NCBI GenBank assembly: GCA_022013675.1
Contig: JAKLPW010000285.1
Coordinates: forward strand, 1-33,507
Reading direction: 5' to 3'
DNA: 33,507 nucleotides
DNA from: Anaerolineae bacterium
Lineage (GTDB): Bacteria > Chloroflexota > Anaerolineae > JAKLPW01
Both the position numbers and the translations under genes were made by a program. Numbering within the stretch: the first letter of the stretch is position 1; every line of letters begins with the position of its first letter. Positions 4,229 to 22,774 of this stretch are shown in pieces. The notes beneath the pieces are model-generated. The model was not told the origin of the DNA, did not search any database, and was given only the letters and a program-made list of their open reading frames with translations.

Positions 4229-4252
4229 ACACGAAGGGGGAATGGGATAGAG

Positions 4253-7102: not shown

Positions 7103-9334
7103 ATGTTGCGACGACATTGGGGCATTGCGGTTCTTCTGGGTGTATTCCTGATCACTGGCGCAATCTATGGTGTTGTGACCCCTGTTTTTGAGGCTCCTGA
7201 CGAACTCTGGCATTATGCCTATGCTGTGCACCTGGCCGACAACGGCAGGCTACCTGTGCAATCCCTGGAGGAAGATCAACCGTGGAGGCAAGAGGGCAGC
7301 CAACCTCCTCTCTACTACGCGCTGGGGGCGCTGCTGCTTCGGCCTCTGGATCTAGGGGGAGCCGAGAACATCGCAACCTACAACCCTCACGTTGAGCTGG
7401 GAGTACCTTCGGCGCTAGCGAACGTCAACATGGTGCTTCATGGCGACGGTGAGGGGTACCCATATCAGGGACATATCTTGGGGGTGCACCTGCTGAGGAT
7501 TCTCTCTATCCTGTTGGGCGCCGGCACGGTTTGGGTGACGTACAGACTTACCCTGGAGGTCTTCCCTGACGGGGAGTGGTTGGCGGTCGGAGCGGCAGCC
7601 ATCAATGCCTTCACTCCTCAGTTCCTTTTCATCGGAAGTTCCGTCAATAATGATAATGCGATTACGTTTCTTGCCTCCTTGGCTTTGTGGCTGTTGGTTC
7701 GGCTGGCCAAGGGGGATCGGAGGGTAAAGAGCCTGATCTGGTTAGGACTAATTCTCGGACTGGCCGGCTTGGCTAAGCTGAGTGGCCTCGGTCTTTGGGC
7801 TCTCGTTGGTATCACATTCCTGTGGTTGGCGTGGAAAGAACGCTCGTTGCGAGTGGTGGTCTGGCAGGCGGGTATCGTGTTTGCAGTGGCGGTGCTCATA
7901 TCCGGTTGGTGGTATGTACGCAATTGGATGCTCTATGGCGACCCTACGGGCGTGAATGTGATGCTACAGATCGTAGGCCGGAGGGCGCACGCACCGGATA
8001 TCTGGGGACTCCTTTCTGAGATCCATGGATTGGGAGTATCCTACTGGGCCATCTTCGGATGGTTCAATATCCTGGCAGACAAGTGGATATACGTCGTCTT
8101 CGAGATTCTTTTCGGGGCGGCAGTTCTGGGCTGGGGAATCGCGCTCGCTCGCTGCCTGTCCCAACGTAGGATCAGTATTGACATTCAATTTGCCCTACCG
8201 ATAACGTGGAGTGGCATCGTGCTCTTTTCCCTGGCTCGCTGGACTCGCATGACGCCGGCCACTCAGGGACGATTGCTGTTTCCTGCTATCGGGGCGATTT
8301 CCATGATGCTGGCCTGGGGTATAATACATTGGGTTCCATCTCGATGGCATCGTTTGATGGTCGGTCTGGTGGCCCTTTTCTTGTGGGGAGTGGCATTGGC
8401 GCAGCCGTTCTCTGTTGTTGCGCCAGCTTATGATCGGCCCAATCTTCTCGGACTCCATCAGATACCTTCGGGTGCTCGTGACGTGAAGGCGGATTACGGT
8501 GATCGCATTCGCTTGGTGGCTTGTGAATTCGAACGGTCGGCCGTACACCCGGGGGACGTACTCAAGGTGACGCTGTATTGGCAGGCCCTGACGGGAATGG
8601 ATGAGAACTACAGTGTCTTCATCCATCTGGTGGGGCCGGATGGGCAACCTATGGGGCAGGCTGACAGCTATCCATGTGGTGGAATGTACCCTACGCGCCA
8701 GTGGAGGCCGGGGGAGATCGTGAAAGATGTCCACTGGGTGCCGGTTGAGGCGGATGTCGAGGCACCGCTTGCGGCCGATGTCGAGGTGGGTCTGTATGTC
8801 CTCTCTGAGTACAGCAATCTGTCAATCACCGATGCGCTAGGGCGATCAGTAGGACGCGTTGTCGCCGGACGGATCAAAGTGGCCCCCTCTACTATGCCAG
8901 CCTATGATATCCTTCATAGGATGCATTACGAGCTGGGGGGCCAGATTGCGCTGATAGGGTATGAGATTACAGATCCCAACGTCGAGACGGGGGAGTGTCT
9001 GCGGGTTGATCTTTATTGGCAGTCGTTGGCACCGGCCTCGGCCGATTACACGGTCTTTGTGCATCTGTTGGATTCGGATGATCGCCAGTGGAGCCAGGGG
9101 GACAAGCGTCCTCAGAGGGGGTATTCGACTCTGCTCTGGGAGGTGGGGGAGATTGTTCTGGACAGGTGCGAGATTCCTGTGCCTTCGGATTTATCGCCCG
9201 GGAAGTATCGCATATCTGTAGGGATGTACAGGGCCGACAACATGCAGCGCTTGCCTGTTTCTCATGATGGTCAGCCAGTGTCCATGAACCGCATCTGGCT
9301 CGACGAACCGGTGTGTATTCTGGGGGGAGAGTAG
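7103..9334 (+). CDS. DUF2142-like GT-C membrane glycosyltransferase with two C-terminal GYD modules (paralogue 3 of 4)
   Basis: The ATG begins on the base after the previous stop, so translation is probably coupled. The 743-residue product opens with a helix and the loop PVFEAPDELWHYAYAVHLADNG, then QPPLYYALGALL, SSVNNDN, a set of membrane helices, and TQGRLLFPAIGAIS. Its closest relative in the window by motif is paralogue 1: both share WRQEGSQPPLYYALGAL and the loop that follows it, with VNMVLHGDGEGYPYQG here against INMVIHTEREAFPWSG there. The C-terminal third is two GYD modules after a VVAPAYDRP linker. The likely role is extracytoplasmic sugar transfer from a lipid-linked donor. This is inferred from the GT-C architecture; the acceptor is unknown. 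Confidence 0.87.
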   Translation: MLRRHWGIAVLLGVFLITGAIYGVVTPVFEAPDELWHYAYAVHLADNGRLPVQSLEEDQPWRQEGSQPPLYYALGALLLRPLDLGGAENIATYNPHVELGVPSALANVNMVLHGDGEGYPYQGHILGVHLLRILSILLGAGTVWVTYRLTLEVFPDGEWLAVGAAAINAFTPQFLFIGSSVNNDNAITFLASLALWLLVRLAKGDRRVKSLIWLGLILGLAGLAKLSGLGLWALVGITFLWLAWKERSLRVVVWQAGIVFAVAVLISGWWYVRNWMLYGDPTGVNVMLQIVGRRAHAPDIWGLLSEIHGLGVSYWAIFGWFNILADKWIYVVFEILFGAAVLGWGIALARCLSQRRISIDIQFALPITWSGIVLFSLARWTRMTPATQGRLLFPAIGAISMMLAWGIIHWVPSRWHRLMVGLVALFLWGVALAQPFSVVAPAYDRPNLLGLHQIPSGARDVKADYGDRIRLVACEFERSAVHPGDVLKVTLYWQALTGMDENYSVFIHLVGPDGQPMGQADSYPCGGMYPTRQWRPGEIVKDVHWVPVEADVEAPLAADVEVGLYVLSEYSNLSITDALGRSVGRVVAGRIKVAPSTMPAYDILHRMHYELGGQIALIGYEITDPNVETGECLRVDLYWQSLAPASADYTVFVHLLDSDDRQWSQGDKRPQRGYSTLLWEVGEIVLDRCEIPVPSDLSPGKYRISVGMYRADNMQRLPVSHDGQPVSMNRIWLDEPVCILGGE
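8483..9334 (+). repeat. Two tandem GYD modules in paralogue 3
   Basis: Module 1 (about 8483-8884) has RLVACEFERS in place of GYD, then VTLYWQAL, NYSVFIHLVGPDG, YPTRQWRPGEIVKD and VGLYVLSEY. Module 2 (8921-9334) has ALIGYEITDP, VDLYWQSL, DYTVFVHLLDSDD, LWEVGEIVLD and VGMYRADNMQRLPV. Confidence 0.83.
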
Positions 9335-9339
9335 CAGTC

Positions 9340-11619
9340 GTGGAGAAGAGGTCCCAGCCAAGGAAGAGGGCGAACTGCATATCCAGACTCGCAGAAAGTC
9401 GCTGGGGGATCGTCTGTGTGTTGGTGCTCTTCGTGATCCTGGGACTGGCGTACGGTGTTGCGACGCCTGTCTTTGAGACACCGGATGAACCCTGGCACTT
9501 CCTCTACGCCAAGCGCCTGGCAGATGGGGATGGCTTGCCTCCTCTGACGTTTTCCGACGATCCCTGGGAACAGGGAGAGGCCCACCAGCCGCCCCTTTAC
9601 TATGCCCTGTCTGCTTTGGCTATATCCTGGGTAGATACCGGTGATTGGCAGGTGTGGATGCAGCGCAATCCACATGCCGCCCCAGGCGCTCCCGGTTCTT
9701 TTGGCAATAAGAATGTCGTTCTACATGGTATTCCTGGTACAGAATCCTGGGCTGGGACCGGCCTGGCGGTGCATCTGCTTCGTCTACTCTCGCTTGCCCT
9801 GAGCGCACTGACGGTATGGGTGACCCATGAGCTTATGAAGGAGCTGTTCCCCGACGATCCGGTGATTGCCTTGTCAGGGGCTGTGATAATTGCCTTTAAC
9901 CCCCAGTTCTTGTTCATCAGCGCGGCCGTTAACAACGATAGCCTCATCACTCTGCTTTGCTCCGTGGCCTTGTTGGTGATTATCAGAGGGATGCGTAAGG
10001 GATTATCGCTGCGATGGGCCACGGGCCTGGGATTGGTTATCGGGGCCGCAATGCTAACCAAGCTGGGCGGCTTTGGGCTTCTGGTGCCGGCCTGGTTGTC
10101 CATTGCCTGGCTGGCGTGGCGGGAGCGTCGCTGGCAAACCTTTGTGAGGTATGCCACAATCGTCGCGTGCATCGCCATGGCTGTATCGGCCTGGTGGTAT
10201 GTACGAAACCTCGTCTTGTTCCGCGACCCTTTGGGCATGCGTGCTCTGGTGGCCGCCTTCCGCACACACGATCGGACACCGACTTTGCTGGAACTACTGC
10301 GTACTACCGGCGACGCTGAGATCTCTTTCTGGGGAGTCTTCGGCTGGATGAACGTCCTCGCAGGAGAGTGGTTCTATGTGGTAGTCCGTGTTCTGGGGAG
10401 GCTTTCTATCCTTGGAGTAGGGATTGCGCTAGTTCGCTGGTGGCGTCGGGGCCGGGTCGTGAGTGAGCGGGTCGCCAAACTACTCGTCCTGGGAGCGTGG
10501 ATGCTGGTCGTGCTGTCGAGCCTGATTAGTTGGAGCAGAGAGGTAACAGGACCTCAGGGGAGACTGCTTTTTCCAGCGATTACCTCTGTAGCTGCGTTGC
10601 TGATCATGGGTCTTTCGGCTTTGTGGCCTGACAGATCTCGAAGAATCCCAGTGGTGGCAGCGCCGCTCTTCCTTCTGGTAGCGGCAGCGATCATGCCCTT
10701 CGCGTACATTTCACCGCCGTACGAAGTGCCTCCCATTATCGCGGCTGCCGATCTGCCCGCCGATCTCCAACAACTAAACATAACCTTCGATAATGGTATT
10801 CGACTGGTTGGCTATCGAGTTGGTCAGGAGAGTGTAGTCCCTGGGGAGAAGCTTGATGTGTACCTATACTGGCAGGCATTGGATTCTCTGGATGACAACT
10901 ACTCTGTGTTCGTGCACCTTTTTGGCCGGGGGAGGGAGTCATTGGGTCAGGTAGACAGCTATCCTGGGAAGGGGAATTACCCTACCGGCGCCTGGGAGCC
11001 GGACGGGATGATCTGTGACCACTATCGTGTAGAGGTGGCAGAGGATGCTCTAGTGCCGACAGCCGGGCGCATTGAGGTGGGACTGTACCGGTTGCCGGGA
11101 TACGAGAATGTCCCGGCGACAGACGGTCAGGGATGCGATATCGGGACTGCTCCCGACATCGGGGGTGTCAGAATTGGCCCTTCCCAACCGGCCCCGTGTC
11201 AGCCGCCGTGTGTGACTGCTGTTGTCTTTGGCGATCGGGTAGAGTTAATGGGGTACCATCTTTCGCATGATGCGCTGATTAGTGGGGAGCAGCTATCCGT
11301 GACCCTGTACTGGCGCGTGACGCAGGTGTTTGAGCAGGACTATACTGTTTTCGTGCACCTTGTCGGAGAGGATGGTTTGGCAGGACAGGCTGACAGCCAG
11401 CCGTTGCAAGGAGAGTATCCTACTTCGTTCTGGATGCTAGGGGAGACCTTGAAGGACGAACACCTTCTGGAAGTGTACCCTGATGCCTCTCCTGGGCAAT
11501 ACCGCCTGGAAGTGGGGTTGTATTTACTGGAAGACGGAGAGCGACTGGTGGCCAGTGGCGAAGGCGATCATGGACAAGACTACGCGGTTCTAGGACCGGT
11601 GGAGGTACTCGGCCCTTGA
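9340..11619 (+). CDS. DUF2142-like GT-C membrane glycosyltransferase with two C-terminal GYD modules (paralogue 4 of 4)
   Basis: The start is taken as GTG 9340, because GGGGAGAG lies about 8 bases upstream; GTG 9313 would overlap the previous gene by 22 bases and has no such site. The 759-residue protein has a basic N-terminus (EKRSQPRKR), helix 1, the loop PVFETPDEPWHFLYAKRLADGDG with the conserved Asp-Glu, QPPLYYALSAL, AAVNNDS, and PQGRLLFPAITSV. It then has the linker ISPPYEVP and two C-terminal GYD modules. It is the last of the four-gene tandem array. Probably a polyprenyl-phosphate-sugar dependent transferase on the outer membrane face. Divergence between paralogues suggests different donors or acceptors, but the sequence does not say which. 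Confidence 0.87.
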   Translation: MEKRSQPRKRANCISRLAESRWGIVCVLVLFVILGLAYGVATPVFETPDEPWHFLYAKRLADGDGLPPLTFSDDPWEQGEAHQPPLYYALSALAISWVDTGDWQVWMQRNPHAAPGAPGSFGNKNVVLHGIPGTESWAGTGLAVHLLRLLSLALSALTVWVTHELMKELFPDDPVIALSGAVIIAFNPQFLFISAAVNNDSLITLLCSVALLVIIRGMRKGLSLRWATGLGLVIGAAMLTKLGGFGLLVPAWLSIAWLAWRERRWQTFVRYATIVACIAMAVSAWWYVRNLVLFRDPLGMRALVAAFRTHDRTPTLLELLRTTGDAEISFWGVFGWMNVLAGEWFYVVVRVLGRLSILGVGIALVRWWRRGRVVSERVAKLLVLGAWMLVVLSSLISWSREVTGPQGRLLFPAITSVAALLIMGLSALWPDRSRRIPVVAAPLFLLVAAAIMPFAYISPPYEVPPIIAAADLPADLQQLNITFDNGIRLVGYRVGQESVVPGEKLDVYLYWQALDSLDDNYSVFVHLFGRGRESLGQVDSYPGKGNYPTGAWEPDGMICDHYRVEVAEDALVPTAGRIEVGLYRLPGYENVPATDGQGCDIGTAPDIGGVRIGPSQPAPCQPPCVTAVVFGDRVELMGYHLSHDALISGEQLSVTLYWRVTQVFEQDYTVFVHLVGEDGLAGQADSQPLQGEYPTSFWMLGETLKDEHLLEVYPDASPGQYRLEVGLYLLEDGERLVASGEGDHGQDYAVLGPVEVLGP
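10777..11619 (+). repeat. Two tandem GYD modules in paralogue 4
   Basis: Module 1 (about 10777-11178) has RLVGYRVGQE, VYLYWQAL, NYSVFVHLFG, YPTGAWEPDGMICD and VGLYRLPGYE. Module 2 (11215-11619) has ELMGYHLSHD, VTLYWRVT, DYTVFVHLVGEDG, YPTSFWMLGETLKD and VGLYLLEDGERLV. Confidence 0.85.
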
Positions 11620-14051
11620 ACGATCGCGGGTGTATCGAGCGAAGCAGTAATGATGAAGCTGGTCGACGTTGGGTCACCAGTGTCGTGTTGCTGGGCTTGA
11701 TCCTGGTTTCCTTTGGGCTGCGCATCTGGCGCATCGAGGCCAAGAGCATCTGGTGGGACGAGAGCTTGAGCCTGTATCGAGCCCAGCATGATCTGCCCTA
11801 TGTGCTATCGAACCGCATTGATTTTCCGGGAGCCGAGACCACGGACTTGCATCCGCCTCTCTATTTCGTTCTTTTGCACTTCTTCATTCGGTTGGCGGGA
11901 GAGAGTGATCTGGCACTGCGCTTTCCTTCTGTCTGTTGGGCCACTGCGTTGGTGCCTCTTCTCTACATCGTTGGAAAGCGCTGGTGGGGAAGAGGAGTAG
12001 GCCTGTGGGCGGCGGGACTCGGGGCCGTATCGCCTTTCTATCTCTGGTACGCCCAAGAAGCGCGGATGTACACCATGGTTACCTGCCTGGGCCTACTTTC
12101 CGCCTACGTTCTGGGGAGGGCTTTGGAAGGCGGAAGACGTTCATGGTATATTACGTTCGTGATCCTGGCGGCAGCCATGTTGTACACGCACTACTTCGCC
12201 TTTCTCCTGTTGGCATTCGAGGGGCTGGCGTGGCTGCTGGGGACACTGCGAAATCGTCGTTGGCGAAGTATCTGGGTTTTTGCCCTTGTCGGAGCTATGT
12301 GTCTGCCTCTTCTGGGTTATGCTGTCTATCGACTGGCCTCTGGGCCGGAGATGGGCCGTGTCTATGTGCCTCTCTTCTCAATCCTAGGGGATAGTCTAAA
12401 CTCCTTTGCTCTGGGCCTGTCCGTGCGAATGTGGCAGGTATACCCTCTCGACTTACTTTTCCTTGTGATGTATGTTCTCGGGGTGTGGTCCTCTTCTGCC
12501 GATCACGAGTGGCAGGGCACACAGAGGCGGTTCTTTCTGCTGGGATACGTCTTCGTGCCAATTCTGGGACTCTACCTCTCTTCGCTGGTGAAGCCCTTCT
12601 ACATGGGAAGCCGCTACGTGATTATTGCGAGCCCTGGTTTCTATCTGGGCGTGGCGGCAGGACTGAATTTCCTGTTGCACCACAGGGGGAGGTTTGTCGC
12701 GGTTTTATCGGTGCTCTGTTCATTGTTGCTATTTGCCGGGATTGGATATTCGACATACAATTATTTCTTTGATGAGCACTACGGCACAAAAGAAGATCAC
12801 CGCTCGTCCGCGCGGTACGTCGAGGCACATGGGCGACCAGGTGACCTGGTAGTTGTGGACGCTCCAGAGAATATGCCCGCCTTCCGGCATTACTACGGAG
12901 GGGAATTGCCCGCCATCGGTCTTCCAGGCGTGGCTATGAGTGGCCGTTCTGATCCTGTGAGCATCTCCAGAGACTTGGAGCAGGAAGCAGGGGATTACCG
13001 GCGTATCTGGTTGGTGCAGTGCCGAACCATGTTCTCTGATCCCGATGAGTTGGTGCACAGATGGCTTGAGGAACATACCTTCAAGCTGGATGAAGTGAAT
13101 TTTCGCAGCTATGGTTCTGATGCCCAGGTGTATCTCTACCAGCCCGAGTCTCCGGTTACGGATCAATTGCCTGCCATGCAGTGTTCGGAGATCGCTGAGT
13201 TCGGGGGGGAACTGACCCTTCTGGGCTATGACCTTCCCTCAATGCCTTTGGCAGTGCATGAATCCGCGGTCATGACGCTCTACTGGCGTGCCAAGACGGA
13301 GTCATCGGCAGAGTACAAGGTCTCGCTGCAATTGGTGGACGATGAAGGAACACTCTGGGCGCAGCGAGATCGGGTGCCGTTCTACTTCTTTCCAACCACT
13401 CTCTGGCCGGTAGGTCAGATTATTAGGCAAGAGCACGAGCTCACTATACCGCCGGGCACCCCCCCTGGGGAGTATCGCTTGGAGCTAAGGGTGTATGGGC
13501 GCGAGAGTGGCGATTTGCTGCCGGTGACGGTCGAGCCATGCGTATCTTCGGAGACGACGGTGCTGACCTTGGCAGAAGTGGTCGTTGCTCGCCCAACGAA
13601 GAGTGTGTCGGCTGAGGGGTTGGTGCTCGCTCATCGCACTGATGCGACCTACGGAGGCAGATTGAGGCTTCTGGGGTATAATATTTCTAGGCGTAAGGCA
13701 TACCCGGGGGAGAGGCTGAAACTCGATCTGCACTGGCTGGCCCTTCGGAACATGGATGGTGACTATGGTCTGGATCTGTGGTTGTTGGATGAACGGGGCC
13801 GGCTGGCGGGTGAACTGAAGAGCTGGCCATCGAGGCCTGCGTATCCTACTTCCCAGTGGCACCCGGGGGAAATCGTACGAGGACAGCCAACCCTGGAGTT
13901 GCCAGTCGCTTTAGAACCAGGCGAGTATCGGTTGCGGTTGCTGGTGCGTGACCCTGGCACGGGTTGGGCGTTGCCTTTCTGGCGATCCGGATTCCCGTGG
14001 TCCGAGGTGGGACTGGATTTGGGGTCTATTGACGTACGTGAACCGAAGTAG
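11616..14051 (+). CDS. PMT/GT39-type GT-C membrane glycosyltransferase with two C-terminal GYD modules
   Basis: TTG 11616 overlaps the previous stop by four bases (TTGA), with GGAGG 10 bases upstream. The 811-residue product differs from the four preceding proteins in its membrane part. It has SIWWDESLSLYRAQH after helix 1 (Asp-Glu in the first loop), then LHPPLYFVLLHFFIRL, ALRFPSVCWATALVPLLY, and PFYLWYAQEARMYTMVT. These are hallmarks of the PMT_2/GT39 family (dolichyl-phosphate-mannose-type transferases), here bacterial. After about 400 residues comes a soluble segment containing PGDLVVVDAPENMPAFRHYY, and then two GYD modules. It should use a polyprenyl-phosphate sugar as donor at the outer face. 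Having the same modules on an only distantly related GT-C domain suggests the modules were shuffled or co-recruited. Confidence 0.88.
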   Translation: MNDRGCIERSSNDEAGRRWVTSVVLLGLILVSFGLRIWRIEAKSIWWDESLSLYRAQHDLPYVLSNRIDFPGAETTDLHPPLYFVLLHFFIRLAGESDLALRFPSVCWATALVPLLYIVGKRWWGRGVGLWAAGLGAVSPFYLWYAQEARMYTMVTCLGLLSAYVLGRALEGGRRSWYITFVILAAAMLYTHYFAFLLLAFEGLAWLLGTLRNRRWRSIWVFALVGAMCLPLLGYAVYRLASGPEMGRVYVPLFSILGDSLNSFALGLSVRMWQVYPLDLLFLVMYVLGVWSSSADHEWQGTQRRFFLLGYVFVPILGLYLSSLVKPFYMGSRYVIIASPGFYLGVAAGLNFLLHHRGRFVAVLSVLCSLLLFAGIGYSTYNYFFDEHYGTKEDHRSSARYVEAHGRPGDLVVVDAPENMPAFRHYYGGELPAIGLPGVAMSGRSDPVSISRDLEQEAGDYRRIWLVQCRTMFSDPDELVHRWLEEHTFKLDEVNFRSYGSDAQVYLYQPESPVTDQLPAMQCSEIAEFGGELTLLGYDLPSMPLAVHESAVMTLYWRAKTESSAEYKVSLQLVDDEGTLWAQRDRVPFYFFPTTLWPVGQIIRQEHELTIPPGTPPGEYRLELRVYGRESGDLLPVTVEPCVSSETTVLTLAEVVVARPTKSVSAEGLVLAHRTDATYGGRLRLLGYNISRRKAYPGERLKLDLHWLALRNMDGDYGLDLWLLDERGRLAGELKSWPSRPAYPTSQWHPGEIVRGQPTLELPVALEPGEYRLRLLVRDPGTGWALPFWRSGFPWSEVGLDLGSIDVREPK
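13188..14051 (+). repeat. Two tandem GYD modules in the first PMT-type protein
   Basis: Module 1 (about 13188-13596) has TLLGYDLPSM, MTLYWRAK, EYKVSLQLVDDEG, FPTTLWPVGQIIRQ and LRVYGRESGDLLPV. Module 2 (13638-14051) has RLLGYNISRR, LDLHWLAL, DYGLDLWLLDERG, YPTSQWHPGEIVRG and LEPGEYRLRLLV. Both have lost the VFVHL wording but keep the order of the other motifs. Confidence 0.8.
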
Positions 14052-14105
14052 GGAAGGGCGGCTCGGTGCAGCGTGCAAGACCGGAGAAGTCCATCAGGAG
14101 ATCAT

Positions 14106-15092
14106 ATGAAACCTGTTGTGGGGGAAGAGGAGAGCAGACCTAGGGCTTCTGCTTTGTCGTCGGTGCTGAGAGTAACCCTTAGTCTGCTCCTGCTGGTTGT
14201 GCTGTTGCATAAGTTCGATTTCTCTCGGATAGCAGAGACGCTGCTCAGTGCCAATAAAGGCTATATGGGGGCTGCCCTCGGGCTATATCTGGTTGGCATT
14301 GTGATCTGTTCCTTCCGTTGGCAGGTGCTGCTTGGCAGCCACGATGTGAGTGTACCTCTCAGATCTCTAACGGCCCTCAACTTCGTGTGCAATTTCTTCA
14401 ACAACATCCTGCCTGGTAGTATCAGCGGTGACGTCGTGAAGATGTACCAGTTGTCGAGATACAGTGACCGGAGCGATGTAGCGGTGAGCACAGTCCTGAT
14501 GGATCGGATAACGGGCTTCATGGCTCTTTTTGCCATCGCTGCTGGTGCAGTCCCGTTTGCTCATGAGCTTGTTCCCTGGGAGACGTCGGTCCTCATCCTC
14601 ATCATCGCCGTGGGGATGTGGGGTGGCATGTGGGTTTTCACGCGCGGGAGATGGTGGAAAGGGCTGCGGGACCGTATTGGGTTGCTTGACCGTCTGGCCC
14701 GGACGGAGAAAGTGGGCAAGGTGTACCGCGCCATGAGGACGTACGATCGGCGTGTCACCGCTAGGGTTCTGGGCATCTCTCTGGTATTTGACGCAAGTTG
14801 GATCGTCGTTCGCTACTTGATTGCTCTGGCACTGGGTGTTCGTCTTTCCGTCTGGTATTTCCTACTTTTCATCCCGATCATCTCGCTTGTAACTCTGGTG
14901 CCTATCTCCTTCAGTGGGCTGGGAGTGCGGGAGGGAGCGTATGTCTACCTGTTCTCTCAAGTGGGCGTTGAAGCTCCGACCGCCATCTCTATGTCTTTGG
15001 CCTTCTATGGGCTTCGGCTGGTGGGGGGGATCATCGGAGGCGTGATCTACGCCCTCGGTACCCGAACCTATCTCGGTCGGGCAGAGGAGTAG
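14106..15092 (+). CDS. Lysylphosphatidylglycerol-synthase-TM-like (AglD/UPF0104) membrane protein
   Basis: The start is ATG 14106, because AGGAG ends 5 bases upstream; the longer GTG 14073 frame adds an unlikely 11-residue leader. The 328-residue protein has about 8 membrane helices. It carries the family motifs FFNNILPGSISGDVVKMY, DRITGF and PISFSGLGVREGAYVYLF. These define the LPG_synthase_TM (flippase-like) family, which includes the integral part of MprF and archaeal AglD-type proteins. The soluble MprF transferase domain is absent, as usual for stand-alone members. In this neighbourhood a role in moving or handling polyprenyl-linked or lipid-linked sugars is plausible, but that comes from context and not from a catalytic motif. 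The gap to the next start is about 70 bases with no clear promoter. Confidence 0.9.
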   Translation: MKPVVGEEESRPRASALSSVLRVTLSLLLLVVLLHKFDFSRIAETLLSANKGYMGAALGLYLVGIVICSFRWQVLLGSHDVSVPLRSLTALNFVCNFFNNILPGSISGDVVKMYQLSRYSDRSDVAVSTVLMDRITGFMALFAIAAGAVPFAHELVPWETSVLILIIAVGMWGGMWVFTRGRWWKGLRDRIGLLDRLARTEKVGKVYRAMRTYDRRVTARVLGISLVFDASWIVVRYLIALALGVRLSVWYFLLFIPIISLVTLVPISFSGLGVREGAYVYLFSQVGVEAPTAISMSLAFYGLRLVGGIIGGVIYALGTRTYLGRAEE

Positions 15093-15161
15093 ACGGGAAG
15101 GAAGACTTCGGGAGTCTGGCAAAACTTGAATTGGAGCGAGGAGTTACAGGTGGAGTGCAAC

Positions 15162-16823
15162 ATGCAACGTAAGGTGATGATCATTGGATTAGACGGAGCG
15201 ACGTGGGACGTCCTGCGCCCGTGGGTAGCTGACGGTACGCTGCCGACCCTTGGACGCCTGATGCGAGACGGGGCGCACGGGAATCTGATTACTAGCATCC
15301 CTCCTGTGTCAGCTTCCGCCTGGGTCTCATTTGCGACTGGCAAGAATCCGGGCAAGCATGGTATTGTGGATTTCGTATTCCCGAAAGAGGATGGGTACCA
15401 GGTCTTGGTATCCAACGTCAGCTATCGGGCTTCCAAAGCAGTCTGGAACATCATCAACGAGGCGGGCGGCAAGGTCGGGATTGTGAGTGTTCCCATGACC
15501 TATCCGCCTGAGCACGTAGATGGGTTCGTCATAAGCTCTTTCATGGCTCCCAGTCAGGAGAGCCAGTACACCTATCCTGATGAGATCAAGGATGAGTTGA
15601 GGGAAAACGTTGGGGAGTTCCCTCTAATCATGTTCGAGGGGCATCGTGCCGGGAGGTCGGATCTCTTCGTCGAGGACATGCGGCGTTTCGACATAAAGCG
15701 CGCCAAGGCAGTGCGCTACCTGGCGGAGAACAAAGAGTGGGATTTCTTCTGTTTTGTCTTCGAGACGATAGATACCCTTCAGCACGAGCTGTGGCACTTG
15801 ATGGACCCATCTCATCCGCGACATGATCCTGCCAAGGCAGCGGAAGTGAAGGATGCCATCAAGGGTTTCTACCAGGACATTGACAAAGCTTTGGGCGATA
15901 TCGTCGAAGCGGCGGGGGAAGATTCTCTGGTGATGATCATGTCCGACCATGGATTCGGAGCTTTCCATCGTTTCTTCCACGTCAACAATTGGCTTTGCGA
16001 GCTGGGTTTGATGAAGCTGAAACGCACGCCGCTCAGCCTCTTCAAGCATGCCCTCTTCCGCCTGGGCTACACTCCGATGAACGTGCTAAGGGTCGTCTCG
16101 GCGCTGAAGCTCAGCAACCTGCGCAAGAGAGTGAAGCGTGGACGGGGGCGGGGTCTTCTTCGAAAGTTGTTCCTATCCTTCGAGGATGTAGACTGGAGTC
16201 GGACGCAAGCTTTCGTGGTGGGTAACTTTGGCCAGCTCTACATAAATGTAGCAGGCAAGCGTCCACAGGGATGCGTGCAGCCGGGGGACGAATACGAAGC
16301 CCTGCGCGACCGAATTGTTCGCGAAGCGTTGGCGCTGGTTGATCCAGACACTGGCGAGCATGTGATCAAGTATGCCTACAAGAGAGAGGAGATCTACACG
16401 GGAGACCGCCTTGGTAAGATGCCCGACATAATCCTACACACTGATCGCTCGAGATATGTCTCTTTTGGGCACGCCGATTTCGGATCAAATCGGATTATCG
16501 AGCCCAGCTACGGTCAGACTGGTCACCACAACATGACCGGTATCCTGGGGCTACACGGCAAGGGTGTGGATCCAAGCAAGGTTGTTGAAGGAGCACGCAT
16601 CATTGACGTGGCTCCTACCGCTCTTTATGCCATGGGCATACCAATCCCTGATGATATGGATGGGCGAGTGCTCGAAGAGGCATTCACATCGGAGTATCGC
16701 GCCCTTTACCAGCCTACTTACACCGATTCCTCATCTGCCCGGGAGCGAAAGAGTGAGGACTATCAGAGTGAGGATGAGGAGAAAGTTATGGAGCGATTGA
16801 GGGGGCTGGGATACATTGCGTGA
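15162..16823 (+). CDS. Alkaline phosphatase superfamily / type I phosphodiesterase, paralogue A
   Basis: ATG 15162 has GGTGGAG 6 bases upstream; the longer TTG 15126 frame is less likely. The 553-residue product begins IIGLDGATWDVLRPW, where D11 is the first metal ligand. It continues with IPPVSASAWVSFATGKNPGKHGIVDF, in which S50 sits where the Ser/Thr nucleophile is expected. Further ligands are D204 and H208 in ETIDTLQHE, D262 and H263 in MSDHGFG, and a His in GQTGHHN near residue 456. The C-terminal LRGLGYIA is a motif often seen at the end of sulfatase/phosphodiesterase proteins. There is no signal peptide, so a cytoplasmic site is likely. It probably hydrolyses or transfers a phosphodiester, perhaps a nucleotide-sugar or polyprenyl-phosphate compound. 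A diverged second copy lies one gene downstream. Confidence 0.88.
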   Translation: MQRKVMIIGLDGATWDVLRPWVADGTLPTLGRLMRDGAHGNLITSIPPVSASAWVSFATGKNPGKHGIVDFVFPKEDGYQVLVSNVSYRASKAVWNIINEAGGKVGIVSVPMTYPPEHVDGFVISSFMAPSQESQYTYPDEIKDELRENVGEFPLIMFEGHRAGRSDLFVEDMRRFDIKRAKAVRYLAENKEWDFFCFVFETIDTLQHELWHLMDPSHPRHDPAKAAEVKDAIKGFYQDIDKALGDIVEAAGEDSLVMIMSDHGFGAFHRFFHVNNWLCELGLMKLKRTPLSLFKHALFRLGYTPMNVLRVVSALKLSNLRKRVKRGRGRGLLRKLFLSFEDVDWSRTQAFVVGNFGQLYINVAGKRPQGCVQPGDEYEALRDRIVREALALVDPDTGEHVIKYAYKREEIYTGDRLGKMPDIILHTDRSRYVSFGHADFGSNRIIEPSYGQTGHHNMTGILGLHGKGVDPSKVVEGARIIDVAPTALYAMGIPIPDDMDGRVLEEAFTSEYRALYQPTYTDSSSARERKSEDYQSEDEEKVMERLRGLGYIA

Positions 16824-16834
16824 GGTGCAATTGA

Positions 16835-17794
16835 ATGGGTGATCGCGAGAAGCAAATTGACATATCTGTCGTGATTCCGGTGTACAATGAGGAGAGCAAT
16901 CTCCTGGAACTTCACCGGCAACTCAACGATGTCCTGAGTAATATGGGACGCAGCTACGAAATTATCGCCGTGGATGATGGCAGCAGCGACGATAGCTTTG
17001 AGGTCTTGCGCAGACTCCATGGGCAGGATGAACACCTGGTGGCGGTGCGATTTCGTCGCAACTTCGGGCAGACCGCGGCTTTCTCCGCGGGTTTCGATCT
17101 GGCCCGTGGCCAAATCGTCATTACGATGGACGCCGATTTGCAGAATGATCCCGTTGACATTCCTCACCTGATTGAGATGATGGAAGAGGGCTACGACGTT
17201 GTGAGTGGCTGGCGCAAGGACCGCAAGGACCCCTTTGTCAGTCGCCGGTTGCCTTCTATCATGGCCAATCGGCTGATCTCCTTTGTGACGGGCGTGAAGC
17301 TTCATGACTATGGTTGCTCTTTGAAAGCCTATCGGGGAGACGTGGTGAAGAACCTTCATCTCTACGGGGAGATGCATCGCTTCATTCCAGCGCTGGCCAA
17401 CTGGATGGGCGTGAGTGTTACGGAGATTGCAGTTCGTCATCATCCCAGAAGACACGGCAAATCGAAGTACGGCATCTCTCGCACGCTGAAGGTGATTCTC
17501 GATCTGCTGACGGTGCGGTTCTTACTGAGTTTCTCTGCCCGGCCTATGCAGCTCTTTGGTCTTCTGGGCATGGGATCCTTTGGAGTTGGATTCCTGATCG
17601 GGCTCTATCTTACGGTGCTCAAGGTCATCTATGGACAGAGTATCAGCAATCGCCCGTTGCTTCTGTTGGGGGTGTTGATGCTCGTGGCTGGGATACAGCT
17701 AACCACGATGGGCCTGCTGGCTGAGCTAATCGTGCGTACGTATCATGAGACTCAGGGCAAAGCGATCTACGTGATACGTGAAGTCCTGGACTGA
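16835..17794 (+). CDS. DPM1/GtrB-like polyprenyl-phosphate glycosyltransferase (GT2 with two C-terminal helices)
   Basis: The 319-residue protein has the full GT2 pattern: ISVVIPVYNEESNLLEL, IIAVDDGSSDDS, RNFGQTAAFSAGFDLARG and TMDADLQNDP (DAD at 99-101, metal and donor binding). It then has DYGCSLKAYRGDV and a HHPRRHGKSKYG loop near 202-212 that is typical of polyprenyl-phosphate transferases. Two membrane helices follow (about 238-262 and 274-300), as in GtrB, ArnC and DPM1-type enzymes. It should transfer a sugar from a nucleotide donor to polyprenyl phosphate on the cytoplasmic face, giving the donor used by the GT-C proteins around it. ATG 16835 is 11 bases after the preceding stop with a GAGG upstream. 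It is flanked on both sides by phosphodiesterase paralogues. Confidence 0.93.
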   Translation: MGDREKQIDISVVIPVYNEESNLLELHRQLNDVLSNMGRSYEIIAVDDGSSDDSFEVLRRLHGQDEHLVAVRFRRNFGQTAAFSAGFDLARGQIVITMDADLQNDPVDIPHLIEMMEEGYDVVSGWRKDRKDPFVSRRLPSIMANRLISFVTGVKLHDYGCSLKAYRGDVVKNLHLYGEMHRFIPALANWMGVSVTEIAVRHHPRRHGKSKYGISRTLKVILDLLTVRFLLSFSARPMQLFGLLGMGSFGVGFLIGLYLTVLKVIYGQSISNRPLLLLGVLMLVAGIQLTTMGLLAELIVRTYHETQGKAIYVIREVLD

Positions 17795-17816
17795 CCGAGG
17801 AAGTGAGGCACTGGGA

Positions 17817-19463
17817 ATGAACCGTGTACTGGTAATTGGCGTGGACGGGGCTACAATGGACCTGATCCGGCCCTGGGCAGCGGAAGGGAAATTGCCCATT
17901 CTGAAGGCCCTGATGAGTGGGGGTGTCAGTGGTGAACTGGAATCCACTCTCCCGCCAGTGACCTCCCCTGCCTGGCCTACTTTTTCTACGGGCAAGAATC
18001 CCGGCAAGCATGGGGTCTTCGACTTCATCGTAAACAGTCAGGATGGATTTGGACTGGTCAACGCTTCGTCCATTGACGGGCGTACGCTTTGGGGACTGCT
18101 ATCTGACCATGGGGCACGAGTTGGTGTTGTGGGGGTTCCTGTGACCTATCCCCCCATGGCGGTGAACGGGTACATGATAACGGGTCTTCTCTCGCCTAAA
18201 GGGGTAGAGATCAGTTACCCGCCGGGCTTGCTGAGTCGCTACGAACGGGTTCTAGGGCCGTATCGTGTTGCGCCGAGCATAGGGTACAGACGCGGTAACG
18301 AGGAAGCCTTTCTGGATGATCTAAGGGACTTAACGAGGCGGCACGGCGACTATGCCGTTAGACTCATGCAAGATGAGCCCTGGGATTTCATGATGGTGCA
18401 TTTTCTGGCCACGGACATCGTGCAGCACGCCTTGTGGCGTTTCATGGATAGTTCTCATCCCGCGTACGACGAGGAGGGAGCCCGTCGCTGCGGTGATGGC
18501 ATTCAGTCTATCTACCGTATAGTGGATGAAATCATTGGGCGCATGTTGGATCTAGTCGGCGACGATGTGACTGTGCTGGTAATGTCGGATCATGGGTTTG
18601 GGCCGTTGCATGGGATTGTCAACCTGAACAACCTTCTTTTACAGAAGGGACTGCTGCACCTCAAGCAGGACCTGGCCACACGAACCAAATATGCTCTTTT
18701 CCGGCATGGGCTGACGCCTGCTCGAGTGTACCGCTGGCTGGAGAAGATCGGGCTTCAGAGCCTCACCTGGAAGGTTTCTAAGTCGGCTCGAAACCGTGTG
18801 GTAGGCAAGTTCCTCTCGTTCGACGATGTGGACTGGTCGCGTACCAAGGCATATTCAATGGGACACGTTGGTCAGGTGTACGTCAATCTCAAGGGACGCG
18901 AGCCATCTGGTATCGTTGAACCTGGATACGAGTACGAACAGGTCAGGGATGAGGTAGCTACTGCACTTGCAACTCTGCGCCATCCTTCCACCGGTAATCC
19001 CTTGGTGGATGCCGTGATCAAGAGCGAAGAGGTTTGTATTGGTATACACACCAGTGAAGGGCCTGATCTGCACGTAGTGATGGATGGCTATCGTTATATC
19101 TCGTTTCCCCTGTTCGCCACCAACGAAGAGATCATCACCTCTCAGATTCGAGGTGACTCCGGGTGTCATCGCCTGCAGGGAGTCCTGCTTGCCAGAGGAC
19201 CATCGGTTCTACAGGGGCAGGAAGTGAGAGGGGCCCGTATTCTGGACTTGGCGCCCACCATTCTGCACTTAATGGGGGCGGCGGTCCCCGTCGATATGGA
19301 CGGACGAGTATTGGGCGAGATTATTGATCCCGCATATATGGAAGCCAACCCCGTGCGCTACGAGTCGGTGCAGAACGGTTTTGTACAGGGGGAGTACGAG
19401 CTATCCTCTGGTGAGGAGCAGGAGATCAAAGATCGTTTACGGGGACTGGGCTACCTGGGATAG
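17817..19463 (+). CDS. Alkaline phosphatase superfamily / type I phosphodiesterase, paralogue B
   Basis: This 548-residue protein is a clear paralogue of the gene two positions upstream. It shares VIGVDGATMDLIRPW (D10, metal), LPPVTSPAWPTFSTGKNPGKHGVFDF (T49 in the nucleophile position, where paralogue A has Ser), ATDIVQHALWRFMD, MSDHGFGPLHGIVNLNN, FLSFDDVDWSRTKAY, and the C-terminal LRGLGYLG. A His in SGCHRLQG matches the last metal ligand. ATG 17817 is chosen because it gives the same N-terminus as paralogue A and is 22 bases after the previous stop; a longer in-frame start at 17778 overlaps that gene. The Ser/Thr difference at the nucleophile suggests related but distinct substrates. No secretion signal is seen. 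Confidence 0.88.
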   Translation: MNRVLVIGVDGATMDLIRPWAAEGKLPILKALMSGGVSGELESTLPPVTSPAWPTFSTGKNPGKHGVFDFIVNSQDGFGLVNASSIDGRTLWGLLSDHGARVGVVGVPVTYPPMAVNGYMITGLLSPKGVEISYPPGLLSRYERVLGPYRVAPSIGYRRGNEEAFLDDLRDLTRRHGDYAVRLMQDEPWDFMMVHFLATDIVQHALWRFMDSSHPAYDEEGARRCGDGIQSIYRIVDEIIGRMLDLVGDDVTVLVMSDHGFGPLHGIVNLNNLLLQKGLLHLKQDLATRTKYALFRHGLTPARVYRWLEKIGLQSLTWKVSKSARNRVVGKFLSFDDVDWSRTKAYSMGHVGQVYVNLKGREPSGIVEPGYEYEQVRDEVATALATLRHPSTGNPLVDAVIKSEEVCIGIHTSEGPDLHVVMDGYRYISFPLFATNEEIITSQIRGDSGCHRLQGVLLARGPSVLQGQEVRGARILDLAPTILHLMGAAVPVDMDGRVLGEIIDPAYMEANPVRYESVQNGFVQGEYELSSGEEQEIKDRLRGLGYLG

Positions 19464-19480
19464 GCTGCGGAGATGAGTTC

Positions 19481-22400
19481 ATGCGGAAATTGACTCGCTG
19501 GGTCACAAATCACCGGATTATCACCGTGCTGCTCTTTATTGGGGCTTTGCTGCCCCGGGTCTTGCAGCCTGGCCGTTTCATCACCTGGGACGAACTGAAG
19601 TGGGTTTTCCGTTCCATAGGGTTTCTCGACGCTCTGAGCAGGGGCGACCTGGCCGGTACTTTCCAGGCCGGACATCCAGGGGTGACAACTATGTGGTGCG
19701 GAGTGATGGGAGTAGGGCTACGTTGTCTGATAGAAGGGGAGCCCGTTCGACAGGCGTTGGCAACGGTAGCGTCCTTGTCGTCTCTCAGTCCCTTCGATGC
19801 TCAGGCAATGAAGACACTGGCCCCATTCTTGGTGTATGGGCGACTGGTGGTAAGTACTGCTACGGCATTATGCGTAGCGGGGATGTATGTCATGGCACGT
19901 CACTTCCTTAAGGGATGGGTGGCTTTCCTAGGAGTGGCCCTGGTTGCCCTGGATCCATTCTATCTGGCTCATTCCCGCGTGCTCCACGTGGATGCCCTGG
20001 CGGCTAGCTTCATGACGCTTTCCGTGTTGGGGATGCTGGCACATCTGGCCAATTGCCGTTCGCGACGTTACCTCTTTGTCTCCGGATGTTCAGCCGGCAT
20101 GGCGTTGTTGAGCAAGTCGCCGGCGATCTTCCTTCTTCCTATGGTGGTCCTGGCTTTCATTACCGCCGCGCTGGTCTCCCGGAGGGTTCGCGCCCGGGGC
20201 ACCAAAACCTTGCTGATGGATCTGACCATCTGGGGCATATGTGTGGTGGTCCTGTTCCTTCTGCTTTTCCCTGCCATGTGGGTTAGTCCGCTAGACACGT
20301 TGATGGGAATCGGAGAGACCGGCGTTCACCATGCCCTAACGCCCCACGAGACGATCTTCTATCGTGGCACCATAGGTGAAGACCCCGGACCTCTGTTCTA
20401 CCCTCAGGCCGTGGCCTTTCGTCTTACTCCCTTGATCGTGATGGGGCTGCTGCTCTCGATACCACTGCTTTTCGTGCACAAACCTCGCCAGGCGGAGCGA
20501 CGCAGTCTGTTTACTCTGTTCCTCTTCGTGGTTTTCTTCATCGCATTCATGACCTTCGGCGCGAGGAAATTCGATCGCTATTTGCTTCCCATCTTTCCCG
20601 TACTGGATCTCATAGCGGCGGTCGGCTATGGTGGTCTCCTGTTACTGATTGTGCGTCTTCTGGAGCGCATTCTAGGGACGGAACGGAAGGGATGGAAGGC
20701 ATGGTGGCGCTGGATGCCCGTTGCCCTGGGCGTTGCGGCCGTGCTGACCGTTGCGGGCCGAACTTCGCTTCCGTATGCGCCCTATTATCTTTCCTACTAT
20801 AATCCCTTGCTTGGAGGGGGGGAAGCTGCTGCCGAGGAGATGCCGGTAGGATGGGGCGAGGGCGTTGATCTAGCTGCCGACTATCTGAATGGCGTGGGAG
20901 ATGCCCCGGAACTGAAAGTGGCCACCTGGGCCGTAGCTGGGCTGGCTCCTCTCTTTGATGGCCAGGTGCTACCGCTCAGTGAGGAGAATGTGCCCATTGC
21001 GGACTACATCCTTCTGTATTTGGTGGATGTGCAGGCGGATGGACCATTCGTTCAAGAGCTGACCAAGCAGAAGCCAAGCTATGTGGCCCGTCTACATGGC
21101 ATCGACTATGCTTGGGTGTATCCCAATCTTCACTACGTGGAACTGGTGGACCACATTGAGGCCAACGCCGGGCCTCAGGACGTCATTATTGTGAATACTG
21201 CTTCGGCCTTCACTAAGCACTATCGCGGCGCTCTCCCCGTGCACATCGTGGAGGGAGATACCGAAGCCCAGGTGGCAGAGAAGCTGGCCCAGCTAACACA
21301 AGGGGCAGAGTACATATGGTACCTGGAGTACGGCGACGCTTCTCCCACATCCACCGGCTGGCTTAAGCGTCAGCTCGACGTACACTGCCTCAAGCTCGAT
21401 CGGCGCCCCTTTGCATACGGAAAGCTCGTGCGTTATGCCGTCCCCCCTGGGGTTTCCTTCAGCGTGGTGGGCATCCGCAAGCCGGCGGACGTGGATTTCG
21501 AGCGGGTGCTGCAACTTAGTGGCTACGGACTTAGCCGAGCCGTGCTGGAGTATCGCAAGAAACTGGGCATTGCCCTACAATGGGACGTGATGGGTGCGAT
21601 GGATCATGACTATCATATCTTCATTCACCTTGTCGATGAGAATGGTGTGATATGGGGGCAGTGGGACGAGCGGCTCTTGGATGGAGCTGGGAGGCCGACC
21701 AGCCAATGGGAAGAAGGCCAAAGGGTGGTGGGCAGCTATGTGTTCTCGGCACGCGCGGGTACTCCGGCCGGAAGGTATCGTGTGAAGGTAGGTGTCTATC
21801 GGTGGGACAATCTGGAGCGACTTCGAATCATGGACGATGATGATGTACCCGTCGGTGCAGAACATACTCTATCGTCTGTCTATGTTGTCACTCCTACATA
21901 CCCTCCGCAGCTTACTGATCTCAGCATCCAGCATCTTGTGCAATACGACTTTGGCGACCAGATTCGGCTGCTAGGTGCGAACGTGGGTGAGGGCAGCGTG
22001 CGGTCTGGCGCTACCCTCCACTTTGAGTTGTTCTGGCAATCTTTAGCGCCTACGGAAACAGACTATCAGCTTCTGATACAATTGAGGGACGAGGACGGGC
22101 ATGTCTTGGGAGCAGAGCGAGTGCCTCCGAGTAGAGCAAGCTACGCCACCAGCTCGTGGCAGGTAGGGGAAATCACCAGATACCCGCAGCAGATAACCAT
22201 CTCGCCTGAGGCTGTAGGCGGAGACTATGTCTTGACGGTCAATCTGATCGATCCAAGCACTGGGCAACCGATGGCCTCGGAAGATGCTCCCTTGGCAGTT
22301 GTTACAGTCAAGGCGCGGGAGAGGCTTTTCGATGTTCCCGTCATTGCTTATCCTGTTCCTGCCAGTTTTGGTGGCGATATTGAGCTCCTGGGATACGATC

Positions 22401-22774
22401 TGCAGGAGGAGAGCGTTGCGCCGAAAGGTGTTCTTCATCTGACGCTCTATTGGAGGACCCTGCGGCCGACGGATATCCCCTATACGGTGTTCACTCACTT
22501 ACTGGATGGGGAGGGCAAGGTGAGGGGCCAGCGGGACAGCGTGCCAGTGGATGGGACGCGCCCGACCACGGGTTGGGCTGTTGGTGAGATCATAGTGGAT
22601 CGTTACGAGATCTCTGTGGATGGGGATACTCCTGAAGGCACATGCCAGATCGAGATTGGCCTATACGACCCTGCGAGCGGGGACCGTATGCCTGCCTTCG
22701 ATGCGGAGGGCCAGCGTCTGGAGTACGATCGCGTGCTACTGCCACATGCCATCCAGATCATACCTGGTGCCTAG
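19481..22774 (+). CDS. Large PMT/GT39-type GT-C membrane glycosyltransferase with three C-terminal GYD modules
   Basis: ATG 19481 follows the previous stop by 17 bases, with GGAG about 9 bases upstream. This is the largest gene here (1097 residues). The membrane part has FITWDELKWVFRSIGFL in the first loop (Asp-Glu pair), then FQAGHPGVTTMWCG, DPFYLAHSRVLHVDALAASFMTL and LSKSPAIFLLPM. GARKFDRYLLPIFPVLDL and YYLSYYNPLLGGG follow. These fit the bacterial PMT_2/GT39 family. After a soluble segment (about residues 460-670) come three GYD modules. It is the last gene of the + strand run; 156 bases follow before the GntR gene, which has its own promoter. Predicted to transfer a sugar from polyprenyl phosphate at the outer face. 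Confidence 0.88.
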   Translation: MRKLTRWVTNHRIITVLLFIGALLPRVLQPGRFITWDELKWVFRSIGFLDALSRGDLAGTFQAGHPGVTTMWCGVMGVGLRCLIEGEPVRQALATVASLSSLSPFDAQAMKTLAPFLVYGRLVVSTATALCVAGMYVMARHFLKGWVAFLGVALVALDPFYLAHSRVLHVDALAASFMTLSVLGMLAHLANCRSRRYLFVSGCSAGMALLSKSPAIFLLPMVVLAFITAALVSRRVRARGTKTLLMDLTIWGICVVVLFLLLFPAMWVSPLDTLMGIGETGVHHALTPHETIFYRGTIGEDPGPLFYPQAVAFRLTPLIVMGLLLSIPLLFVHKPRQAERRSLFTLFLFVVFFIAFMTFGARKFDRYLLPIFPVLDLIAAVGYGGLLLLIVRLLERILGTERKGWKAWWRWMPVALGVAAVLTVAGRTSLPYAPYYLSYYNPLLGGGEAAAEEMPVGWGEGVDLAADYLNGVGDAPELKVATWAVAGLAPLFDGQVLPLSEENVPIADYILLYLVDVQADGPFVQELTKQKPSYVARLHGIDYAWVYPNLHYVELVDHIEANAGPQDVIIVNTASAFTKHYRGALPVHIVEGDTEAQVAEKLAQLTQGAEYIWYLEYGDASPTSTGWLKRQLDVHCLKLDRRPFAYGKLVRYAVPPGVSFSVVGIRKPADVDFERVLQLSGYGLSRAVLEYRKKLGIALQWDVMGAMDHDYHIFIHLVDENGVIWGQWDERLLDGAGRPTSQWEEGQRVVGSYVFSARAGTPAGRYRVKVGVYRWDNLERLRIMDDDDVPVGAEHTLSSVYVVTPTYPPQLTDLSIQHLVQYDFGDQIRLLGANVGEGSVRSGATLHFELFWQSLAPTETDYQLLIQLRDEDGHVLGAERVPPSRASYATSSWQVGEITRYPQQITISPEAVGGDYVLTVNLIDPSTGQPMASEDAPLAVVTVKARERLFDVPVIAYPVPASFGGDIELLGYDLQEESVAPKGVLHLTLYWRTLRPTDIPYTVFTHLLDGEGKVRGQRDSVPVDGTRPTTGWAVGEIIVDRYEISVDGDTPEGTCQIEIGLYDPASGDRMPAFDAEGQRLEYDRVLLPHAIQIIPGA
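21488..22774 (+). repeat. Three tandem GYD modules in the second PMT-type protein
   Basis: Module 1 (about 21488-21895) has QLSGYGLSRA, IALQWDVM, DYHIFIHLVDENG, RPTSQWEEGQRVVG and VGVYRWDNLERL. Module 2 (about 21938-22318) has RLLGANVGEG, FELFWQSL, DYQLLIQLRDEDG and YATSSWQVGEITRY. Module 3 (22358-22774) has ELLGYDLQEE, LTLYWRTL, PYTVFTHLLDGEG, RPTTGWAVGEIIVD and IGLYDPASGDRMPA. Confidence 0.83.

Follow-up and report, generated by a model that had tools for sequence, protein, structure and literature searches.

The window analysed here is a stretch of 33,507 nucleotides from an Anaerolineae bacterium (assembly GCA_022013675.1, contig JAKLPW010000285.1), which is contig C221 in a draft genome of 3.94 Mb. 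It contains a one-strand run of five genes (14073-22774, forward strand), with 11 to about 70 bases between neighbours, which encode an LPG_synthase_TM protein (LPGtm), the AlkP-superfamily phosphodiesterase A, an ArnC/GtrB-like glycosyltransferase of family 2 (GT2), a second AlkP-superfamily phosphodiesterase, B, and a PMT-like membrane glycosyltransferase. An earlier sequence-only reading had placed A and B directly on either side of the polyprenyl-phosphate glycosyltransferase, and the open reading frames (ORFs), their order and their strand are as claimed. The unit consists of two modules, one pairing A with LPGtm and the other pairing B with the transferase.

The gene for A (15162-16823) encodes 553 amino acids from the ATG at 15162, with an alternative in-frame start upstream (TTG 15126), and the gene for B (17820-19463) encodes 547 amino acids from the ATG at 17820, with an upstream alternative (GTG 17778) that overlaps the transferase gene. 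The transferase (16835-17794; PF00535, 9.2e-33) has ArnC as its best match in both the PDB (9hwj, 6.4e-63) and NCBIfam, and also matches the GtrB-type protein sll0501 (3.6e-41). Its score against the ArnC equivalog PRK10714 (245.9 bits) lies below the cut-off of 529, and we class it as ArnC-like and not as ArnC. The product of 14073-15092 (PF03706, 2e-44), the partner gene of A, is a flippase-like membrane protein that passes the profile cut-offs of both LPG_synthase_TM (152.7 bits; cut-off 33.4) and TIGR00374 (75.6 bits; cut-off 43.2). Downstream of B, the PMT-like protein of 1097 amino acids (19481-22774; PF13231, 8.5e-10) is the likely outer-face user of the polyprenyl-phosphate sugar.

Two gene modules

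We searched A, B and the transferase individually in 396 genomes of the class and fetched the loci. At E <= 1e-140 there are matches to A in 55 genomes and to B in 42, and at 1e-80 to the transferase in 212; these thresholds also take in neighbouring clades. The order LPGtm-A-GtrB-B, with GtrB denoting the transferase, is kept in eight of the 396 genomes, spread over four families: that of the window (f1), G017 (f18), G074 (f7) and five genomes of a single f35 genus (G034, G066, G113, G289 and G327). The three-gene order pointed out by the sequence-only reading is thus conserved beyond the window, and A of the seven other genomes is 52-65% identical to that of the window. A PMT-like gene lies directly 3' of B in the window, G017 and G074; by locus, this is seen in L039 and L110. 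In four further genomes (G018, G084, G108 and G128), A and B share a cluster of altered gene order; no transferase was seen in the G108 cluster on its short contig.

A quick tree built from 100 close relatives, in which 24 forks are open and the clades of A and B are starred, places A in a clade of 19 rows (support 99) and B in a separate clade of 37 rows (support 100). Among the 18 A-clade loci whose upstream gene can be seen, 17 have LPGtm immediately 5' of A; in the remaining one, G018, the gene before A is B. For B, the immediate 5' neighbour is GtrB in 22 of 29 core loci, and one further locus has GtrB adjacent but divergent; the GtrB-B junction is in many loci a 4-base stop/start overlap (gap -3). 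The B counts omit six more distant rows of the clade (L064 and L141-L145), none of which has GtrB directly upstream. Three loci that lie at contig ends (two of B, one of A) are likewise left out of the locus counts, as is L150, which is from the same species as the window. Gene calls were mechanical longest ORFs; LPGtm of L111 and GtrB of L053, masked by over-long frames, were corrected by hand, and in L113 an opposite-strand ORF of 107 amino acids was stepped over.

The modules also occur separately: several genomes contain GtrB-B-PMT without A at the site, and others LPGtm-A-GtrB without B. Therefore, A and B are not an obligate pair, and the window represents both modules joined. A strictly obligate trio was rejected, because GtrB is not directly upstream in 7 of the 29 B loci and most B loci lack A. 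The sequence-only reading had described A and B as two enzymes of the cytoplasm linked with the central transferase. The conserved trio, the kept active sites and the absence of a visible export signal agree with this description, but a partnership of A with the transferase in particular is not supported, since A tracks LPGtm and it is B that tracks the transferase.

Active sites, fold and cationic insert

A and B align end to end with 37% identity over 550 columns, and PF01663 is the sole Pfam match of either protein (137.1 bits and 1.4e-39 for A, 139.6 bits and 2.4e-40 for B; gathering cut-off 23). The six residues that we take, from knowledge of the superfamily, to be metal ligands are all kept in A (D11, D204, H208, D262, H263 and H456) and in B (D9, D199, H203, D257, H258 and H450), and the nucleophile is Ser50 in A (PPVSASAW; codon 15309-15311) and Thr48 in B (PPVTSPAW; codon 17961-17963), all in line with the sequence-only reading. 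Profile score, complete two-metal ligand set and Ser/Thr nucleophile together place both proteins in the AlkP superfamily. Both score below the NCBIfam equivalog cut-off for PhnA (36.1 bits for A and 26.3 for B, of 407.55), and A also below that for iPGM (19.4 of 862 bits). Two paralogues at other loci (L046, ORF at 7780, reverse strand; L073, ORF at 14530, forward strand) have Asn replacing metal-ligand Asp and His, and are perhaps inactive AlkP proteins retained beside active ones.

Hydropathy analysis finds no hydrophobic segment or N-terminal signal in A or B (maximum 19-residue Kyte-Doolittle mean 1.11 and 1.34, respectively), and no N-terminal hydrophobic stretch is gained from the upstream alternative starts, as expected from the earlier claim that signal peptides are absent. 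Transmembrane anchoring was rejected, with no hydropathy window above 1.6 in either protein; one such window is found in 16 of 209 relatives. Membrane AlkP transferases of the LtaS/EptA type have an N-terminal membrane domain, and by the same measure A and B do not. Both enzymes look catalytically competent and cytoplasmic, as judged from their sequences.

The difference in nucleophile had been singled out as a special feature of the pair, and in this respect the earlier view has to be abandoned. A tally of 209 family members (proteins under 430 amino acids left out) gives 107 Thr, 100 Ser, one Cys and one gap, with at least 17 Ser/Thr changes on a FastTree tree of the same set, compared to a mean of 70 and a minimum of 59 in 50 label shuffles. 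Because the swap is common across the family, it is no peculiarity of A and B, and it was rejected as a mark of divergent chemistry. Within the clades the nucleophile is constant, being Ser in 19 of 19 A rows and Thr in all 28 B rows that have the column. There are 26 positions fixed (>= 90%) to differing residues in the two clades, several of which adjoin metal ligands; among them are the nucleophile, the residue that follows the second-site His (Glu209 in A, Ala204 in B) and a block before the last ligand His (433-455 in A). These differences near the active site suggest that A and B act on different substrates.

AlphaFold2 models of A and B have mean predicted local distance difference test (pLDDT) scores of 92.4 and 91.7. 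The closest solved folds are those of the NPP family, with Z-scores to ENPP3 (9nir) of 27.4 for A and 28.5 for B; superposition covers roughly 350-355 residues (rmsd 3.3-3.6, about 15% identity), and the fold-match lists include the lipid phosphodiesterases ENPP2, ENPP6 and ENPP7. A profile search did not find a close solved structure of the AlkP family itself. A and B share the core fold and the two-metal ligand set with the NPPs (ENPP1/3, Xac NPP, and ENPP2/6/7, which act on lipids), and B shares the Thr nucleophile. In contrast to the NPPs, which are exported or membrane-anchored ectoenzymes, they have no export signal by hydropathy, and they carry a cationic insert and a C-terminal LGY tail, with Ser as the nucleophile in A. 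They also lack the Asn of the ENPP1 motif HGIIDN, a phosphoryl-group contact. Alignment to the ENPP1 profile puts Phe71 (A) and Phe69 (B) at this position, and Phe is found there in 19 of 19 A rows and in 28 of the 29 B rows with a residue; an alternative alignment, with phosphonoacetate hydrolase, puts Asp70 there, and Asn is present in neither. Although the core fold is shared, we do not claim membership of the NPP family, because the Asn and the export trait are missing.

The insert consists of four short helices, spanning residues 284-340 in A (16011-16181) and 279-334 in B (18654-18821) of the models, with counted net charges of +16 and +10, respectively. Across the family its net charge averages +9.2 and is positive in all 204 proteins scored (five of the 209, whose insert has under 20 residues, were excluded), compared to a mean of -16 for the remainder of the protein. 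The insert is more variable than the rest (entropy 2.66 bits versus 2.18 elsewhere), yet hydrophobic and Lys/Arg columns alternate. Among acidic proteins, 106 of 153 AlkP proteins (69%) have at least one 57-residue window of +9 or more, versus 12 of 83 control ORFs (14%); the controls include ORFs that arose by chance, and such ORFs are commonly basic. Conservation of positive charge despite sequence drift fits peripheral membrane contact, and suggests that the insert docks A and B on the inner leaflet.

Both proteins end in RLRGLGY(I/L) (16794-16820 in A, 19434-19460 in B). Tails of this type are present in 186 of the 209 family members (187 AlkP ORFs), and only two non-AlkP ORFs among 1969 chosen ORFs have one.

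The wider family and its neighbours

The AlkP family to which A and B belong is uncharacterised and was seen in Chloroflexota, Planctomycetota, Desulfobacterota and archaea; a single genome can contain as many as 16 matches to A. We found no published role for it in the literature searched, a scope outside which subscription papers and preprints fall; as far as the searches go, the type of pathway is known and the two enzyme modules are uncharacterised. An immediate same-strand neighbour of GT2, GT4, PMT or LPGtm type is present for 86 of 212 distinct AlkP genes versus 147 of 847 other genes, and LPGtm by itself for 29 versus 4; the 847 control genes come from the same loci, away from AlkP genes, and similarity to A and B was one route by which the AlkP set was recruited. 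Pfam was run on 122 of the 163 unlabelled neighbours, after removal by hand of duplicates, short ORFs and a small number of long ORFs, and gave 19 matches to Polysacc_synt_3 and 5 to MurJ, which may overlap. Tandem AlkP pairs recur: 25 of the 212 genes have another AlkP gene as the neighbour upstream, and 23 have one downstream. A locus from Woesearchaeota (L181:10004-18004) has a B-like AlkP gene, an adjoining LPG_synthase_TM gene, an asparagine-synthase-like gene, GT2 and STT3 in a row, which by its predicted products resembles an archaeal N-glycosylation cluster.

Relatives of A in L176, L177, L180, L188 and L196 (Brocadia, a planctomycete) are directly preceded by a gene of about 320 amino acids. 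That of L176, scanned singly, is of the OMP-decarboxylase family, which is matched by 5 of 51 neighbours in the set. Locus L150 (JAHJUB010000200.1) is labelled Candidatus Omnitrophota and encodes a protein 99% identical to A of the window; other relatives are Chloroflexota, and the contig is probably mis-binned. Loci L191 (Aminicenantes, CP070825) and L192 (Heimdallarchaeota, CP070695) have identical gene layouts and scores around the AlkP gene, and one of the two labels is therefore likely wrong.

Possible role in polyprenyl-phosphate sugar metabolism

We hypothesize, with a probability of roughly 40%, that A and B are peripheral inner-leaflet phosphodiesterases of one polyprenyl-phosphate-sugar glycosylation pathway, in which B cleaves at the transferase step and A at translocation; the membrane docking, the lipid-linked substrate and the order of steps are what we infer here. 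Enzymes of the ArnC and GtrB families are established to load polyprenyl phosphate with sugar on the inner leaflet, and the GT2 of the window, being closest to ArnC and sll0501, should catalyse the same step and make the polyprenyl-phosphate-sugar. B would cleave a phosphoester or phosphodiester of the lipid-linked product at this loading step. The LPG_synthase_TM protein would help to move the lipid-linked intermediate, on which A would perform the corresponding cleavage during translocation, and the PMT-like enzymes would use the lipid-linked sugar outside. As an outcome, only correct intermediates would proceed, or stalled carrier would be freed. The cationic insert and the neighbouring flippase-type genes appear to favour polyprenyl-phosphate sugars over soluble nucleotide sugars as substrates.

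Several points weigh against this hypothesis. Enzymes with the NPP fold act on nucleotides and lipids alike. B without A, and A without B, occur in many genomes, so the two are not obligate partners, and some relatives are located away from glycan genes, for example after the OMP-decarboxylase-family gene in Brocadia and in a planctomycete. The insert holds the least certain stretch of the models (lowest block pLDDT 54 in A and 62 in B). Any reaction, ligand or localisation proposed for A and B is a prediction from sequences and models, and LPG_synthase_TM is a putative flippase by name and family only.

The locus can be compared with the arn (L-Ara4N) and gtr systems, which likewise have an ArnC/GtrB-type GT2 beside a membrane glycosyltransferase and a translocator-like gene; unlike in arn, the GT2 here scores far below the ArnC cut-off, and we know of no AlkP-superfamily enzyme in either pathway. 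ArnD, which acts between ArnC and ArnT, is a deacetylase-type enzyme. A and B could take its place as obligatory head-group processing enzymes, removing or transferring a phospho-substituent on the lipid-linked sugar before translocation, possibly from a phospholipid donor as with exported AlkP transferases. We consider this doubtful, albeit a serious alternative: the plan of GT2, soluble enzyme, translocator-like protein and ArnT/PMT-like protein resembles the arn operon, the best matches of the GT2 are to ArnC, and the 26 fixed differences near the active site point to specific substrates, but the likeness is of plan only, genes for phosphate-bearing donors were considered within the window only, and many GtrB-B loci lack A, and vice versa. 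According to one review, loss of arnD, arnE, arnF or arnT is expected to sequester carrier, and loss of arnC is not (PMC12826051).

That A and B are soluble nucleotide-sugar pyrophosphatases, limiting or proof-reading the donor pool of the glycosyltransferases in the cluster, seems unlikely. Their nearest folds are indeed NPPs, one of which was solved with UDP-GlcNAc (6f30), but the Asn of the nucleotide-cleaving NPPs aligns with Phe71/Phe69, a conserved cationic amphipathic insert is unexpected in a soluble nucleotide enzyme, and the gene linkage is with lipid-side genes (LPGtm and the Wzx/MurJ types). Persistence of the B-GtrB and A-LPGtm adjacencies at 52-65% protein identity across several families makes it very unlikely that the AlkP genes serve some unrelated purpose and are passengers in glycan islands, even though some members adjoin non-glycan genes and clusters are rearranged between families (L040, L115 and L119).

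Returning to cleavage at the loading and translocation steps, we speculate that it might serve quality control and release, an elaboration that is itself rather improbable. Inner-leaflet AlkP enzymes would hydrolyse mis-made or stalled polyprenyl-phosphate(-sugar), B after loading and A at translocation, returning the carrier and preventing its sequestration, and the multiplied paralogues would provide one valve per glycan pathway. Polyprenyl-phosphate is described as a scarce shared carrier whose trapping in unfinished glycans harms cells (PMC12826051). Such enzymes would be a functional counterpart of the eukaryotic dolichol-linked oligosaccharide (DLO) diphosphatase (EC 3.6.1.44), a metal-dependent activity that frees sugar phosphate from lipid-linked sugar and is also active on bacterial lipid II; as of 2019, the genes for it had yet to be identified (PMC6600155). 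As this is an activity without a sequence, the likeness is one of function, and no homology is claimed. A dedicated bacterial cytoplasmic-side enzyme that clears trapped carrier intermediates was not found in the literature searched. Replacement of the usual carrier pyrophosphatase by A and B was rejected, because a BacA/UppP gene (284.7 bits) is still present in the genome. Another PF01663 protein without a solved close relative is EboF, which we compared by description only; it belongs to a different operon, ebo, where it is combined with a UbiA-type membrane enzyme (PMC5133447).

A broad AlkP family that often lies beside carrier-loading and carrier-moving genes and has a conserved positive insert thereby acquires a concrete, testable role, and the two-gene pair of A and B allows the loading step to be separated from the translocation step.

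The PMT-like gene after B is the sixth of a large array in the window. The other five form a tandem upstream of the LPGtm gene (1907-14051; 743-949 amino acids each), the last of them at 11616-14051 on the forward strand (PF13231, 1.6e-13).

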